From positions 35,001-99,000 of the forward strand of contig NZ_SBJL01000001.1 in NCBI RefSeq assembly GCF_004634425.1: 64,000 nt of DNA, in the 5' to 3' direction. This DNA comes from Vitreimonas flagellata. GTDB taxonomy: Bacteria > Pseudomonadota > Alphaproteobacteria > Caulobacterales > Aquidulcibacteraceae. The notes under the pieces were generated by a model that made no database searches, was not told the DNA's origin, and saw nothing but the letters and a program-made list of their open reading frames with translations. Position numbers and translations under genes: made by a program. Of the stretch, positions 15,526 to 35,139 are shown one piece after another. Each line of letters begins with the position of its first letter. Position 1 is the stretch's first letter.

Positions 15526-16713
15526 ATGGATCTTGAATTCTCGCCAGAAGAAATTGCGTTTCGCGACGAAGTGCGCGCGTTCATCGACGCAAATTATCCC
15601 AAGCACCTGAAGGGTAAGGTGATGCGGGAAGACCTCACGAAAGAGGACTTCCTCGTCTGGCACAAAATCCTCGGCAAAAAAGGTTGGTCCGTTCCGGCGT
15701 GGCCCGTCGAGTACGGCGGCACCGGTTGGACGGCGACGCAGCGCTACATTTGGGGCGAAGAGAATGCGCGCGCGGAAACTATTCCGCCGCTGCCGTTCGG
15801 CGTCTCGATGGTCGGCCCCGTCATCTATACGTTCGGCACGCCCGAGCAGAAGCAGCGCTTCCTGCCGGGCATCGTCTCTGGTGAGACGTGGTGGTGCCAA
15901 GGGTATTCCGAGCCGGGCGCAGGCTCTGACCTCGCAAGCTTGAAGACGCGCGCCGTGCGCGAAGGCGATTATTACATCGTCAACGGCCAGAAGACGTGGA
16001 CGACGCTCGCGCAGCACGCCGATTGGGGCTTCTTCCTCGTACGCACCGATCCGGATGCGAAGCAGCAAGAAGGCATCTCGTTCCTGTTGCTCGACATGAA
16101 GTCGCCGGGCGTCAGCGTTCGCCCGATCAAATTGCTCGATGGCGGCGTCGAAGTGAACGATGTCTTCCTCGACAACGTGAAGGTGCCTGTCGATCAGCGC
16201 ATCTATGAAGAGAACAAGGGCTGGACCTGCGCGAAATTCCTGCTCGCGCATGAACGTTCCGGCATTGCCGGCGTCGCGCGCTCGAAGCGCAATGTCGAGC
16301 GTTTGAAGAGCATCGCCAAGAGCGAAATCGGCGATGACGGCAAGCCGCTCATCGAGGACGAAGATTTCCGCCGCAAGCTGAGCGAAGTCGAGATCGATCT
16401 CGCCGCACTTGAGATGACGGAATTGCGCGTTCTCGCGCGCGAACAAGCCGGCCGTGGCCCAGGCGTGGAAAGCTCGCTGCTCAAAATCAAGGGCACCGAA
16501 ATCCAGCAGCGCCTGACTGAGCTCACGATGGAAGCGGTGGGCAATTACGCACAGCCGTTCCCGCGCGGCGAAGGCGACAACGAATTCGCCGCTGGCCCCG
16601 ATTACGCAAACCACGTTGCGCCGATCTACTACAATTGGCGCAAGGTCTCGATCTTCGGCGGCTCGAACGAGATCCAACGCAACATCATCGCTAAGATGGT
16701 GATGGGGTTCTAA
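15526..16713 (+). CDS. Acyl-CoA dehydrogenase, PimC-like large subunit
   Basis: 395-aa FAD enzyme of the acyl-CoA dehydrogenase family. It has the N-terminal MDLEFSPEEIAFRDEVRAF helix, QGYSEPGAGSDLASLKTRA (FAD/substrate loop), GQKTWTTLAQHADW, and the C-terminal IFGGSNEIQRNIIAKMV. It resembles the large subunit of heteromeric enzymes such as pimeloyl-CoA dehydrogenase. The small-subunit-like gene lies at 18628 on the same strand but is separated from it by the RT-TIR gene. The carboxyl-CoA substrate is inferred from similarity only. Confidence 0.87.
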   Translation: MDLEFSPEEIAFRDEVRAFIDANYPKHLKGKVMREDLTKEDFLVWHKILGKKGWSVPAWPVEYGGTGWTATQRYIWGEENARAETIPPLPFGVSMVGPVIYTFGTPEQKQRFLPGIVSGETWWCQGYSEPGAGSDLASLKTRAVREGDYYIVNGQKTWTTLAQHADWGFFLVRTDPDAKQQEGISFLLLDMKSPGVSVRPIKLLDGGVEVNDVFLDNVKVPVDQRIYEENKGWTCAKFLLAHERSGIAGVARSKRNVERLKSIAKSEIGDDGKPLIEDEDFRRKLSEVEIDLAALEMTELRVLAREQAGRGPGVESSLLKIKGTEIQQRLTELTMEAVGNYAQPFPRGEGDNEFAAGPDYANHVAPIYYNWRKVSIFGGSNEIQRNIIAKMVMGF

Positions 16714-16746
16714 TCAGCCCGATTTGTGAAAGCCTAGACAGGTCGA

Positions 16747-16784
16747 CGAGCGCGCATTGACTCAAGATGCGCGCTCGCGTTCTT
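16747..16784 (+). terminator. Possible terminator hairpin after the acyl-CoA dehydrogenase
   Basis: Perfect 11-bp stem CGAGCGCGCAT / ATGCGCGCTCG (16747-16757 and 16767-16777) with a 9-nt loop, followed by a weak T-rich tract (GTTCTTT). It may end the dehydrogenase transcript and separate it from the RT-TIR gene. Alternatively it could be part of the upstream ncRNA of that gene. Confidence 0.5.
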
Positions 16785-16798
16785 TGCGCGCAAGGCAT

Positions 16799-16891
16799 CT
16801 CGTCCTTCTACGTCTGCTGTTGATCCTGCGGCAGAACAAACAACGTCTGTCTTTATACCCAGCCCTGCGGGCGGGTATCGTAAGGTACGAG
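16799..16891 (+). ncRNA. Candidate structured RNA (retron-like ncRNA or 5' leader) upstream of RT-TIR
   Basis: Three helices fit together as a three-way junction. P1 pairs CTCGTCCTTCTACG (16799-16812) with CGTAAGGTACGAG (16879-16891), about 12 bp with small bulges. P2 is TCTGCTG / CGGCAGA (16813-16819 and 16829-16835). P3 is ATACCC-a-GCCC-tgc-GGGC-GGGTAT (16855-16878). P2 abuts P1 on the 5' side and P3 abuts it on the 3' side. The layout resembles retron msr-msd with a1/a2 ends just before the RT, but 93 nt is short and no typical branching-G motif is clear. P1 also covers the start of the Shine-Dalgarno region, so cis-regulation is an alternative. Confidence 0.45.
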
Positions 16892-16898
16892 GGACGGG

Positions 16899-18569
16899 AT
16901 GCCTCTCACTTCCATTGAAGACGCCGAAGGCCTGCGGCTCCCGGATGGACGCTTGGTGCTCAGTGCGCGCGACGCGGCGATCTATTTCGGCGTCTCGTTC
17001 GGCAAGCTCACGCACGCGCTCTATCGCGCCGATGATGAGCAGCGCTATCGCGCGTTTGAGATCCCGAAGCGCACCGGCGGCATGCGCCAAATCTACGCGC
17101 CGCATGGCATCATTCGCGAGTGCCAGGAGAAGCTCGCACCAGTGCTGCAAGAATTCTACGCCGCGCACCCGGCAGCGCACGGCTTCATCAAAGAGCGCAG
17201 TATTCTCAGCAACGCCAAGCTGCATACCGGCCAGCGCTACGTGCTGAATGTCGATCTGGAAGACTTCTTCCCAAGCATCAATTTCGGTCGCGTGCGCGGC
17301 CTCTTCATGGCCGCACCCTTCAAGCTCGGGCCGGCCGCGGCCTCCGTGTTTGCGCAACTTTGCACGCATAGAAACGGCCTGCCGCAAGGCGCGCCGACTT
17401 CGCCGCCGCTTTCCAACTTCATCTCCGCGCAACTCGATCGCGCGCTGTCGCGTCTCGCGCGTGAGAACGGCGTCCGTTATTCGCGCTATGCCGACGACAT
17501 CACGTTCTCCACGAACCAAGGCGCGTTTCCCCCGGCGATTGCGGTAACCTCGCGCGGCGAGGATGGCGGCGAGGGCGTGCGCACGGGCGAAGCGCTGGAG
17601 CGTGCTGTGATCGCGAGCGGCTTCGCCATCAATCATCGCAAAGTGCGGTTGCAGAAGCGCGATCAGCGCCAGAGCGTCACCGGCCTCAACGTCAATGAAA
17701 AGGCCAATGTCGCGCGCAAACGCATCCGGCGCATCCGCGCCATGCTGCACGCGTGGCAAAAGCACGGGCTGGAGGCCGCCGCGGCCGAGCATTATCTGCG
17801 CCATCGCGGCATGCTGCAGCTGCCGCAAAACTTCGACCGCGCGTACCGCAATGTCGTCTATGGCCAGCTTGCCTTCGTGAAGATGGTGCGCGGCGCGGAC
17901 GATCCGGTTTTCCTCAATCTGTGCGCCAAGGTGCTGGAGATCGATCCGAACCCATCGCGCTTCATTCGCCAGATGGTGTTCGGCGCCGACGATTATGACG
18001 TCTTCATCAGCCACGCCAGCGAGGACAAGCACGAGATCGCGCGGCCCATTTTCGAGGCCTGCGCCAAGCTCGGCCTGAAGGCGTTCTTGGACGAAGCGCA
18101 TATCGGCTGGGGCCAGAGCTTTACGCAAAAGATCAACACAGCCCTGGGCTCAGCGCGCACCGTGTTGGCGGTGGTGTCGAGCACGTCTGTCTCGAAGGAA
18201 TGGCCGATCGTGGAGGTCAACACGGCGCTGGCGCTGGAGGTGTCGGGGCAGAAGAAGGTTGTGCCGCTGATTGTCGGCAAACCCGATCTCTCCAAGCTGC
18301 CGCTCATTCGCGGCAAGGATGCGATGGTCTGGAACGGCGACAGCGCCGCTGTGGCCAAGCGGCTCAAAGCGGCCGTCTCCGGCGATGCGCCGCGCCGGCC
18401 CGTGATCACGCCGTCGCGCACGGCGCTGCCGCCCGTCTCCGCCGCGCCAGCTTCCGCGACGGCGCCGCTGCGGCAAGCGCCGGTCGGCACAGGGCCCTGG
18501 GCGCCGCCGCCGCCGCGCAAACGTAAGCTCAGTTTCTTCGAATTGCTGTTTGGCCGCAGGAAGCGGTGA
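16899..18569 (+). CDS. Reverse transcriptase-TIR domain fusion (retron-type RT)
   Basis: 556-aa two-domain protein. The RT domain (about residues 50-330) has RQIYAPHGIIRECQEKLAPVL, motif A LNVDLEDFFPSI (Asp119), motif B GLPQGAPTSPPLSNFIS, the active-site YADD at 197-200, and SVTGLNVNEK, the VTG motif typical of retron RTs. A TIR domain follows at about 365-460 (DDYDVFISHASEDKHE, with WPIVE placing the likely catalytic Glu at 439). The C-terminal tail is Pro-rich then basic. TIR domains in defence proteins cleave NAD, so this is most likely an anti-phage abortive-infection effector whose RT makes RT-DNA. RT-TIR retron systems are known as a class. It sits between two genes for subunits of one dehydrogenase, which points to insertion. 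Confidence 0.88.
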   Translation: MPLTSIEDAEGLRLPDGRLVLSARDAAIYFGVSFGKLTHALYRADDEQRYRAFEIPKRTGGMRQIYAPHGIIRECQEKLAPVLQEFYAAHPAAHGFIKERSILSNAKLHTGQRYVLNVDLEDFFPSINFGRVRGLFMAAPFKLGPAAASVFAQLCTHRNGLPQGAPTSPPLSNFISAQLDRALSRLARENGVRYSRYADDITFSTNQGAFPPAIAVTSRGEDGGEGVRTGEALERAVIASGFAINHRKVRLQKRDQRQSVTGLNVNEKANVARKRIRRIRAMLHAWQKHGLEAAAAEHYLRHRGMLQLPQNFDRAYRNVVYGQLAFVKMVRGADDPVFLNLCAKVLEIDPNPSRFIRQMVFGADDYDVFISHASEDKHEIARPIFEACAKLGLKAFLDEAHIGWGQSFTQKINTALGSARTVLAVVSSTSVSKEWPIVEVNTALALEVSGQKKVVPLIVGKPDLSKLPLIRGKDAMVWNGDSAAVAKRLKAAVSGDAPRRPVITPSRTALPPVSAAPASATAPLRQAPVGTGPWAPPPPRKRKLSFFELLFGRRKR

Positions 18570-18627
18570 AACGCGCGACTTGACCCACGTGCGCGCCCTG
18601 TGAACATTGCGCGCCAGGGAGCACCCG

Positions 18628-19770
18628 ATGAATTTCGACTACACTGAAGAACAAACGATGCTGCGCGACTCGATCGCGAAGTGGGCGGCAGGCCAGTACG
18701 ATTTCGACAAGCGCCGCGCAGCCCTCGCGAGCGACGACGCCTGGAAGAGCAATTGGGCGACCTTCGCCGAGCTCGGCCTCTTGGCTGCCCCGCTGCCGGA
18801 AGATTTCGGCGGCCTAGGCGGCAGCGCCATCGATGTCAGCGTCGTGATGGAAGAATTCGGCAAGGCGCTCGTGGTCGAGCCCTATGTGCCGACCGTCGTG
18901 ATCGGCGCGGGCGCCATCAAGTACGCCGGCTCCGCCGCGCAGAAAGAAGAACACCTGACGGCCATCGCCGGCGGCGAGCGCGTCATCGCGTTTGCGCAAG
19001 CTGAGCCGAAGAGCCGCTGGGCGCTGAACGATGTCAGCGTCACAGCCAAGAAGGAAGGCGCAGGCTATGTGCTGAACGGCCACAAGGCCGTCGTGCTCGG
19101 CGCGCCGCAAGCCGATACGCTGCTGGTCAGCGCGCGCACGGCGGGCGGCCAGCGGGATGCGAAGGGCGTCTCGCTCTTTCTCGTGCCGAAGAGCGCCAAG
19201 GGCGTGACCACCCGCGACTACCCGACGACGGATGGCACGCGCGCTTCGGAAGTGTATCTGGAAAACGTCTCGGTCGGCGCCGAAGCTTTGGTCGGTGCGG
19301 CGGACGCCGCGCTGCCGGTGATCGAGCGCATCGTCGATGAAGCCAACGCCGCCTATTGCGCCGAAGCTGTGGGCTGCATGCGCACGATGACGACGCTGAC
19401 GCAGGAATACGCCAAGACGCGCAAGCAATTCGGCCGCGCGATCGCCGAATTCCAAGTGCTGCAGCACCGCATGGTCGATATGTTCATCGCCTCGGAAGAA
19501 TCCTACTCGATGGCGCTGCGCGCCACGATAAAGTTGGGTGAAAGCGACGAAGAACGCGCGAAGGCCGTCTCTGCGGCGAAAGTTTCGATCGGCAAGGCCG
19601 GACGCTTTGTTGGCCAAGCGGCCGTGCAAATCCACGGCGGCATGGGCGTCACCGAAGAAATGCGCGTCGGCCATTACTTCAAGCGCGTCACCATGCTCGA
19701 CGCCACGTTCGGCAATGTCGATACGCACCTGAAGCGTTACATGGCGCTCACGGCGAAGGAAGCGGCGTAA
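18628..19770 (+). CDS. Acyl-CoA dehydrogenase, PimD-like small subunit
   Basis: 380-aa acyl-CoA dehydrogenase family protein. It starts MNFDYTEEQTMLRDSIAKW, has LPEDFGGLGGSAIDVSVVMEEFG, a divergent FAD loop (AQAEPKSRWALNDVSVTAKK) and the C-terminal QIHGGMGVTEEMRVGHYFKR. It resembles the small subunit of heteromeric pimeloyl-CoA dehydrogenases, which usually pairs with the large subunit encoded upstream at 15526. GGGAG is just before the ATG. Confidence 0.86.
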   Translation: MNFDYTEEQTMLRDSIAKWAAGQYDFDKRRAALASDDAWKSNWATFAELGLLAAPLPEDFGGLGGSAIDVSVVMEEFGKALVVEPYVPTVVIGAGAIKYAGSAAQKEEHLTAIAGGERVIAFAQAEPKSRWALNDVSVTAKKEGAGYVLNGHKAVVLGAPQADTLLVSARTAGGQRDAKGVSLFLVPKSAKGVTTRDYPTTDGTRASEVYLENVSVGAEALVGAADAALPVIERIVDEANAAYCAEAVGCMRTMTTLTQEYAKTRKQFGRAIAEFQVLQHRMVDMFIASEESYSMALRATIKLGESDEERAKAVSAAKVSIGKAGRFVGQAAVQIHGGMGVTEEMRVGHYFKRVTMLDATFGNVDTHLKRYMALTAKEAA

Positions 19771-34560: not shown

Positions 34561-35139
34561 GTGGCGCGAGCGCTTGATACATTGGTGGCGGAGATCCGCG
34601 CATGTCGCGCATGCGAACTACCGCATGAACCGCGCCCCGTTGTCTGGGTGCATCCGGATGCGCGCATTCTCATCGCCGGCCAGGCGCCGGGCAGGCGTGT
34701 GCATGAGACGGGCATCCCGTGGAACGATGCATCCGGCGATCGGCTGCGTGATTGGCTGCAGATGGACCGCGATGCCTTCTACGACAAAACCAAGATCGCG
34801 GTGGCGGCGATGGGGTTCTGCTTTCCGGGGACCGTCAAAGGAGCCGATCTGCCGCCGCGCCGCGAATGCGCGCCGCTATGGCGGCCGCGGCTCTTGCCGC
34901 TGCTCAAGAACGTGCGCCTGACCCTGCTGGTCGGAACGTACGCGCAGCGCTATCATTTGGGTGCTGCGGTGAAATCGACTTTGGGCGAAACGGTCGCTTC
35001 TTGGCGCGACTATCCGGCCAATGTCATGCCTTTGCCGCATCCATCCTGGCGGAATAGCGCATGGCTGAAACGCAATCCCTGGTTCGAGCGGGAAGTGTTG
35101 CCCGAATTGGGGCGCAGGGTCTCATCGGCTTTGCGCTGA
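34561..35139 (+). CDS. Uracil-DNA glycosylase superfamily protein
   Basis: 192 aa from GTG. The N-terminal EIRACRACELPHEPRPVVWVHPDARILIAGQAPGRRVHETGIPWND contains the GQAPG motif of family 4-like UDGs and related proteins; a later PLPHPSWRNSAW supplies the HPS motif. The paired Cys near the N-terminus do not show the full four-Cys Fe-S set of true family 4 enzymes. It probably acts on damaged bases, but activity is uncertain. It overlaps the next gene by 79 nt. Confidence 0.8.
   Translation: MARALDTLVAEIRACRACELPHEPRPVVWVHPDARILIAGQAPGRRVHETGIPWNDASGDRLRDWLQMDRDAFYDKTKIAVAAMGFCFPGTVKGADLPPRRECAPLWRPRLLPLLKNVRLTLLVGTYAQRYHLGAAVKSTLGETVASWRDYPANVMPLPHPSWRNSAWLKRNPWFEREVLPELGRRVSSALR

Follow-up and report, generated by a model that had tools for sequence, protein, structure and literature searches.

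A 112-nt structured RNA upstream of an RT-TIR gene of retron type XII in Caulobacterales

Background

Retron reverse transcriptases (RTs) are marked by the sequence motifs NAxxH and VTG. The ncRNAs of DRT systems also sit beside their RT. TIR domains can either drain NAD+ or make a signalling nucleotide, and both activities use the same catalytic Glu. AbTIR and other bacterial TIR NADases have an aligned W-x-x-x-E stretch in common with the RT-TIR protein described here; to our knowledge, AbTIR is not fused to an RT. Fusions of RT and TIR as such are already known, as PADLOC type XII and as Retron-TIR, which a highlight paper (PMC7699616), in its available part, counts as one of the antiviral systems from Gao et al. 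2020.

The best structural counterpart is retron Eco2 (Ec67), of the RT-Toprim type I-C, in which the RT is likewise fused to its effector, a Toprim RNase and not a TIR domain. As described in the available text of PMC12405507, the Eco2 msr is made up of an a1/a2 helix, a branching guanosine (rG15) followed by a 4-nt spacer, a single 23-nt stem-loop, a 9-nt linker and an 11-nt DNA-RNA duplex, and the msd hairpin is 67 nt long. Here an RT-TIR gene and the RNA encoded upstream of it, both contained in a stretch of 64,000 nucleotides (the window), are compared with these systems and with related loci.

Results

The RT-TIR gene and its protein

The features of the locus are collected in Table 1. 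The protein consists of an RT region (residues ~20-340), a TIR region (366-470) and a proline-rich tail (490-556); within the single 556-aa open reading frame (ORF), Pfam detected RVT_1 at residues 55-262 and TIR_2 at residues 368-470. The two top PADLOC profiles were both RT-TIR_XII (537.5 and 535.8 bits), matched over approximately their whole length, followed by RT-protease type XI (389.5 bits) and RT-Toprim I-C (369.9 bits). On these matches the gene is assigned to retron type XII, a known anti-phage retron kind.

The RT motifs YADD (residues 197-200), NAKLH (105-109) and VTG (260-262) are present. No variation in YADD, N-A-x-x-H or the T-G of VTG occurs across an alignment of 45 sequences, composed of the window and 44 loci hand-picked from 80 of at least 539 confirmed loci. 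E439 is invariant in the 16 RT-TIR proteins of alignment A1 and aligns with the final residue of the W-x-x-x-E stretch in AbTIR. This NAD hydrolase has a solved structure and is, by sequence, the nearest to the TIR domain among solved chains; we take its aligned Glu to be catalytic. An earlier note, made from the letters of the DNA, had described a YADD RT with a retron-type VTG motif, fused to a TIR domain with a plausible catalytic Glu439; the fusion and the motifs were confirmed, and the predicted role of Glu439 agrees with its invariance and alignment.

An AlphaFold2 model of the protein had a pLDDT of 83.3 and a pTM of 0.65, with pLDDT below 50 at residues 496-544 and 549-556. Its best PDB matches were chains of Eco2 (E 1.3e-29), at a TM of 0.5 and an rmsd of 11, which indicates that the model is not superposed as one rigid body; the RTs of Ec86, Eco7/Ec78 and Ec83 followed, and no TIR chain was found among the best 50 matches. 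Pairwise dN amounted to about 0.05-0.15 of dS in six pairs, and was lower still for the TIR domain in all six, so the gene is kept under purifying selection.

A Pro/Ala-rich tail with a hydrophobic-then-basic end was recognized by eye in 15 of 16 RT-TIR proteins of the family, while in L042 a long hydrophobic stretch replaces this end. Compared with the family, the tail is absent from the RT-TIR proteins of Serratia, Neiella and Pseudoalteromonas. The end of the tail is a possible membrane tether.

Table 1. Features of the RT-TIR locus, in coordinates of the window
Feature	Position	Strand	Basis
Acyl-CoA dehydrogenase gene 1, left neighbour	15526-16713	+	Pfam Acyl-CoA_dh N/M/1; orthologue flanks RT-TIR in relatives
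TTGAC, -35-like element, 38 nt before a1	16757-16761	+	Near-fixed distance in family
P1 5' arm (retron a1)	16793-16811	+	Fold, covariation
Candidate branching guanosine	16812	+	G in 19/19 of A3, first base after a1; role by analogy with Eco2 rG15 (available text of PMC12405507)
P2, msr stem-loop, 23 nt, loop UYGAUCCU	16813-16835	+	Covariation; core recurs at other retron RTs
Single-stranded linker and CUUUA (16851-16855); predicted msr 3' end / DNA-RNA duplex	16836-16854	+	Invariance; analogy with Eco2 as far as described in the available text
P3, variable hairpin, predicted msd core	16855-16878	+	Double changes in outer pairs
GUAAGG before a2, predicted start side of reverse transcription	16880-16885	+	Conservation
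P1 3' arm (retron a2), overlaps RT start codon 16899-16901	16886-16904	+	Fold, covariation
RT-TIR fusion gene, 556 aa	16899-18569	+	PADLOC, Pfam, AlphaFold2 model, dN/dS
E439 codon, predicted catalytic Glu of TIR (W435-x-x-x-E439)	18213-18215	+	Invariance, AbTIR alignment
Low-complexity C-terminal tail ending FFELLFGRRKR	18366-18566	+	By eye; low pLDDT
Acyl-CoA dehydrogenase gene 2, right neighbour	18628-19770	+	Pfam; synteny; adjoins gene 1 in retron-less relatives

A conserved structured RNA upstream of the gene

The segment 16790-16905 has a predicted folding energy of -57 kcal/mol (z -5.8), and none of 200 shuffles was as good. Its conservation was evaluated on alignment A3, containing 19 sequences (18 from loci of the family, one from L057, a Bradyrhizobiaceae MAG), and on a set of 21 sequences (A5), obtained by adding the diverged L046 and Roseovarius L100. 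RNAalifold, unaided, recovered helices P1, P2 and P3 in A3, with 11 of 33 pairs changed on both sides. When the structure was fixed, 98.0% of the cells of A3 were paired, versus at most 52.3% when it was slid along the alignment. Double changes were found in 9 pairs and 35 cells of A3, where shuffles average 4.4 and 7.9 and none of 500 was as high; the count of further pair types in A3 was no higher than in shuffles (150 of 500). Among the 21 sequences, 12 of 29 pairs and 45 cells carry double changes, a result reached by none of 500 shuffles.

The three helices contribute differently. Since 10 of the 16 pairs of P1 are invariable in A3, covariation says nothing on much of this helix; on the 21 sequences 98.8% of its cells are paired and 5 of 16 counted pairs show double changes. 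Two of the eight pairs of P2 are so changed. P3 is the most variable part of the RNA, with pairing maintained, and all of its five outer pairs show double changes in both sets.

With P1 as reported in Table 1, the structured RNA is 112 nt long and covers positions 16793-16904. The earlier note had proposed a structured segment of 93 nt, closed by a P1 at 16799-16812/16879-16891. On the 19 sequences this register was rejected: none of its 12 pairs has double changes, pairing is 84.2% vs 83.9% in shuffles, and a base-by-base reading of the 12 pairs finds one of them broken in 15 of 19 sequences. The supported P1 is longer and includes the RT start codon in its 3' arm. The segment seen in the note is strongly folded and conserved, at a corrected extent; the compensatory changes among homologues for which the note suggested a search occur in P1, P2 and P3 as drawn here, and the pairs of the note's P1 register show none.

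Rfam contained no family matching the RNA at gathering thresholds, and a search of four relatives' loci returned, as sole match, a C4 antisense RNA located elsewhere. A relaxed search of the window's RNA gave a single chance-like match on the other strand (E 0.34), which was discarded.

Distribution of the RT-TIR gene and its RNA

Sixty genomes of the family, Hyphomonadaceae (Caulobacterales) as named in the records of the relatives, were sampled. The type XII profile was passed at 1e-60 by 21 of them, two of which do not encode an RT-TIR: G456 and G457, the latter having an RT interrupted by a stop and lacking a Pfam TIR match. In the 19 RT-TIR genomes that remain, the TIR domain was established by alignment A1 for 16 proteins and, for L036 and L039, from the open frame together with the profile match; it is assumed for L049, whose contig ends before the TIR region. 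The upstream element was recognized by eye in 18 of these 19 loci, and in the nineteenth, L046, it was located further upstream by the RNA model.

This covariance model, R1, matched 20 of the 60 genomes, namely all 19 RT-TIR genomes, once each, and weakly G002 (E 0.0055). As 18 of the 19 matched RT-TIR genomes provided training sequences, the independent results are the absence of matches elsewhere and the match in G459 (E 2.1e-20), the genome of L046, which lies outside the training set. In the class sample, R1 matched 1 of 289 genomes, the window's own. A local search covered 88 sources chosen among the loci, without the viral-contig loci L130-L187; upstream of RT-TIR genes beyond training, it detected the RNA in L046 and L058 (E 3.7e-21), which have the same upstream sequence, and in Roseovarius L100 (E 3.6e-7). 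Marginal matches (E 0.0023-0.057) were located just upstream of the RT frame start or across it in L048, L063, L065, L064, L062 and L070.

Several further matches were set aside: echoes on the minus strand, at the same positions, in the window, L055, L056, L057 and L086 (E 4.9e-6 to 0.0067), weak matches at 34864-34953 of the window (E 0.017) and in L123 (E 6.3), and the match in G002, where inspection of a partial stretch by eye found nothing similar.

Across the class sample, the 1e-60 threshold for the type XII profile was passed by 9 of 385 genomes, among them that of the window. Of the eight other loci, the seven scanned with Pfam (all but L029) have an RT and gave no TIR match. Coverage of at least 80% of the RT-TIR protein in one place was found in none of 57 matching phage records and in one of 448 matching plasmid records.

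Retron layout and predicted RT-DNA

The elements of the RNA follow each other in the order a1, G16812, 23-nt stem-loop, linker, CUUUA, variable hairpin, GUAAGG and a2. L100 has no G at the column of G16812. C61, T62 and T63 of the linker/CUUUA region are invariant in A3, as are the UAA and the last G of GUAAGG, the remainder of which is nearly so; GUAAGG resembles the a2 of Ec86.

P2 is of the same length as the single stem-loop described for the Eco2 msr in the available text of PMC12405507; G16812, in contrast, abuts P2 directly, where a 4-nt spacer follows the branching G of Eco2. By likeness to the same description, the RT-DNA template would correspond to ~16845-16879, about 35 nt compared with the 67 nt of the Eco2 msd. 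The complement of this region folds as a hairpin under RNA parameters. A literature phrase search on the shortest msDNA found nothing; the msDNA lengths known to us are 48 nt and up, so that the predicted product would be shorter.

The reading of the RNA as a msr-msd, with the closing helix as a1/a2, had already been put forward in the earlier note. It is well supported by the co-occurrence with RT-TIR, the covariation, the a1/a2 layout, the invariant G and the stem-loop common to other retron RTs, and the RNA is very probably the template copied to DNA by the RT-TIR protein.

Recurrence of the stem-loop core and comparison with other retrons

A short pattern representing the core of the stem-loop was searched in 138 loci, both strands counted (1.77 Mb in all), and occurred 21 times. 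Of the 11 matches beyond the RT-TIR family, seven precede a retron RT match by 100-500 nt, where 0.08 were expected, a figure to be read with the pattern being partly post hoc (one base was widened after a first look, which gave six of the seven loci) and with cyanobacterial loci possibly lacking mutual independence. The remaining four, and one minus-strand match in L052, lie elsewhere, with 2.9 expected over all. The seven loci belong to cyanobacteria (L062, L063, L064, L067, L070), Omnitrophota (L065) and Rhizobiales (L079); the best PADLOC match of the RT part is type XII in L065 and type XI in L062, L063, L064, L067, L070 and L079.

Type XI (RT-protease) loci thus share with the window's RNA a stem-loop core upstream of the RT, and in L062, L063, L064 and L067 the core is also followed by CUUUA, as read by eye. 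They differ from the window in their a1/a2 and, where checked, in the effector, and are matched by R1 marginally (L063 E 0.004, L062 0.023). The a1/a2 of L063 was read by eye, and the minimum-energy fold lacks that helix. That types XI and XII have a stem-loop in common suggests an exchange of effectors around an RNA and RT that remain associated. Within the family, L048 (G456) encodes a type XI fusion of RT and trypsin, and R1 matches weakly across its 5' end (E 0.0023).

RT-TIR genes from other groups were compared as well, leaving out the Acidobacteria locus L074 and the partial L068. Those of an E. coli plasmid (L198) and of Serratia (L060) have an a1/a2 before the RT, like the window, and in these two and in Neiella (L059), all gammaproteobacterial, a pair of inverted repeats ends shortly before the RT frame. 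In Pseudoalteromonas (L061), a1/a2 was not found by the repeat search; the minimum-energy fold shows such a helix. End to end, the arms span 112 nt in the window versus 136 in L198, 139 in L060, 147 in L059 and 131 in Roseovarius L100, and the loop of the stem-loop is UYGAUCCU in the window's family versus GUUGUUUCG in the RT-TIRs of Serratia and E. coli. The shorter span and the GAUCCU stem-loop define a compact RNA variant of a known system type. Further differences from known type XII systems are the extra Pro-rich tail of the window's RT-TIR and its setting in a pair of acyl-CoA dehydrogenase genes. In L198 (NZ_CP019281) and L100, the RT and TIR parts do not form one ORF but are annotated as, or occupy, two frames.

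Transcription

The TTGAC box is found 37-42 nt before a1 in all 19 family loci, where 0.41 would be expected (21 windows of 25 nt), and is absent before a1 in L057 and L100. A consensus scan found no full promoter consensus before a1. In the window, the box is contained in a terminator-like hairpin (16747-16777) between the first dehydrogenase gene and the RNA; 2.6 hairpins of this kind are expected in shuffles of that stretch. A promoter before a1 is likely; the missing full consensus and the position of the box in such a hairpin leave it short of proof.

Genomic place

Both dehydrogenase flanks are present in 10 of the 19 family loci (L021, L030, L031, L038, L035, L040, L034, L043, L033, L037), those of L033 and L037 having been read on the longer copies L056 and L055. 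One flank is present in five (L036, L039 and L049, cut by a contig end, L032 and L044), and none in L041, L042, L045 and L046, nor in L057. Among retron-less genomes of the genus, 18 of 20 contain both dehydrogenases; the gap between them is at most 39 nt in 11 of the 18 pairs, and the other seven contain different inserts of 144-709 nt (the gap of L212 was read by eye). The gap between the two genes (window 15526-19770; L199-L216) is accordingly a recurrent insertion place.

Trees of RT-TIR and of the dehydrogenases, built on 10 taxa, have 5 of 7 splits in common; the conflicting dehydrogenase splits have supports of 0.355, which is weak, and 0.909, which is not. Pairwise identities of the two are correlated (0.88). 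The common splits and correlated identities indicate that the RT-TIR unit was mostly inherited by descent, with losses, and some exchange or repeated insertion at one site may have occurred as well.

No PADLOC match at 1e-5 was found among 10 neighbour proteins; where Pfam matches exist, they suggest roles in metabolism, transport or repair. Positions 1-971 of the window contain the end of a 23S rRNA gene, a 5S rRNA gene and a tRNA gene.

Discussion

The RT-TIR unit is of an ordinary type, and this assignment is well supported; to it are added a new and useful RNA model and an unusual, mostly conserved genomic home. From the observed gene, domains, motifs and conserved RNA, and from the co-occurrence of RNA and gene, we infer a single-gene type XII retron, in which a branched DNA of ~35 nt would restrain a TIR NADase until phage attack, and assign to this reading a probability of about 0.78. 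A transcript starting at a1 or near it would fold into the 112-nt msr-msd, a structure obtained by comparison. The RT domain would bind the msr stem-loop, prime from the 2'-OH of G16812 and copy the region of the P3 hairpin, beginning near C16879 and ending near 16845, which, by analogy with Eco2, would yield a branched msDNA whose DNA part is only ~35 nt long. The complex of RT, RNA and DNA would hold the fused TIR domain inactive; a phage disturbing it would release the TIR domain to hydrolyse NAD+, growth would stop and the population would be protected. The mechanism is best read as restraint of a TIR NADase by a short msDNA; the DNA product, its length, the NADase activity and the trigger are to be taken as predictions.

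The position of the RT start codon bears on a different role of the RNA. In 17 of the 19 family loci a2 contains the RT ATG in frame, and the leader of the window is very stable, as would be expected if the RNA masked the RT Shine-Dalgarno, the alternative offered in the earlier note, or were a mere structured 5' leader hiding Shine-Dalgarno and start codon, with no DNA made. The start codon does not, however, lie within the helix everywhere that the RNA is conserved. The a2 ATG of L042 is out of the RT frame, and in L046 the RNA ends more than 200 nt before that frame; outside the family, the a2 ATG of L057 soon reaches a stop and the RT frame of L100 opens after a2. Because these relatives keep the RNA where the RT start is outside the helix, masking as sole function is unlikely and was rejected; the stem-loop core common to retron RTs matching another type is a further argument against a mere leader, which we regard as decidedly improbable. 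Of the two interpretations in the note, the msr-msd was thus retained and the masking was not. The overlap of a2 with the start codon probably limits translation of the folded RNA as a secondary effect in this lineage, and masking may be a side effect rather than the reason for the RNA.

Other alternatives concern the products of the two domains. The retron could work as described with a TIR domain that makes a signalling nucleotide, like Thoeris ThsB, instead of draining NAD+, and the shared catalytic Glu is compatible with either activity; yet no partner effector was recognized among the neighbours (10 without PADLOC match), the RT-TIR fusion is a single-gene system in PADLOC, and AbTIR, to which the domain is nearest by sequence among solved chains, is an NAD hydrolase, so that this variant seems unlikely. 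That the RT copies the RNA in a DRT-like manner, by protein priming or into repeat DNA, and is not a retron in mechanism, would suit the very short template hairpin and the location of the RNA next to the RT, shared with DRT ncRNAs. Against it, the top ranks among both profile and structure matches go to retrons, with DRT9 and DRT2 chains appearing no earlier than 25th and 33rd among the structure matches of the model, and an a1/a2 with an adjacent G is the retron layout, as given in the available text of PMC12405507; a DRT-like mechanism is very improbable.

Returning to the single-gene retron, a bolder version can be formulated. The RNA would represent a separate compact class of retron RNA producing the shortest msDNA known (~35 nt), which would license a membrane-tethered TIR NADase, kept largely by descent in the acyl-CoA dehydrogenase pair of a family of Caulobacterales and perhaps guarding host metabolism instead of, or besides, sensing phages. 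Taken as a whole, this picture is unlikely.

For the RT-TIR retrons of the family, a covariation-tested RNA model is now available, in which the ends and the likely branch point are fixed. It makes RT-DNA production, the minimal length of msDNA and the restraint of TIR by msDNA testable. A very short msDNA, if true, would be of interest for DNA production by retrons.
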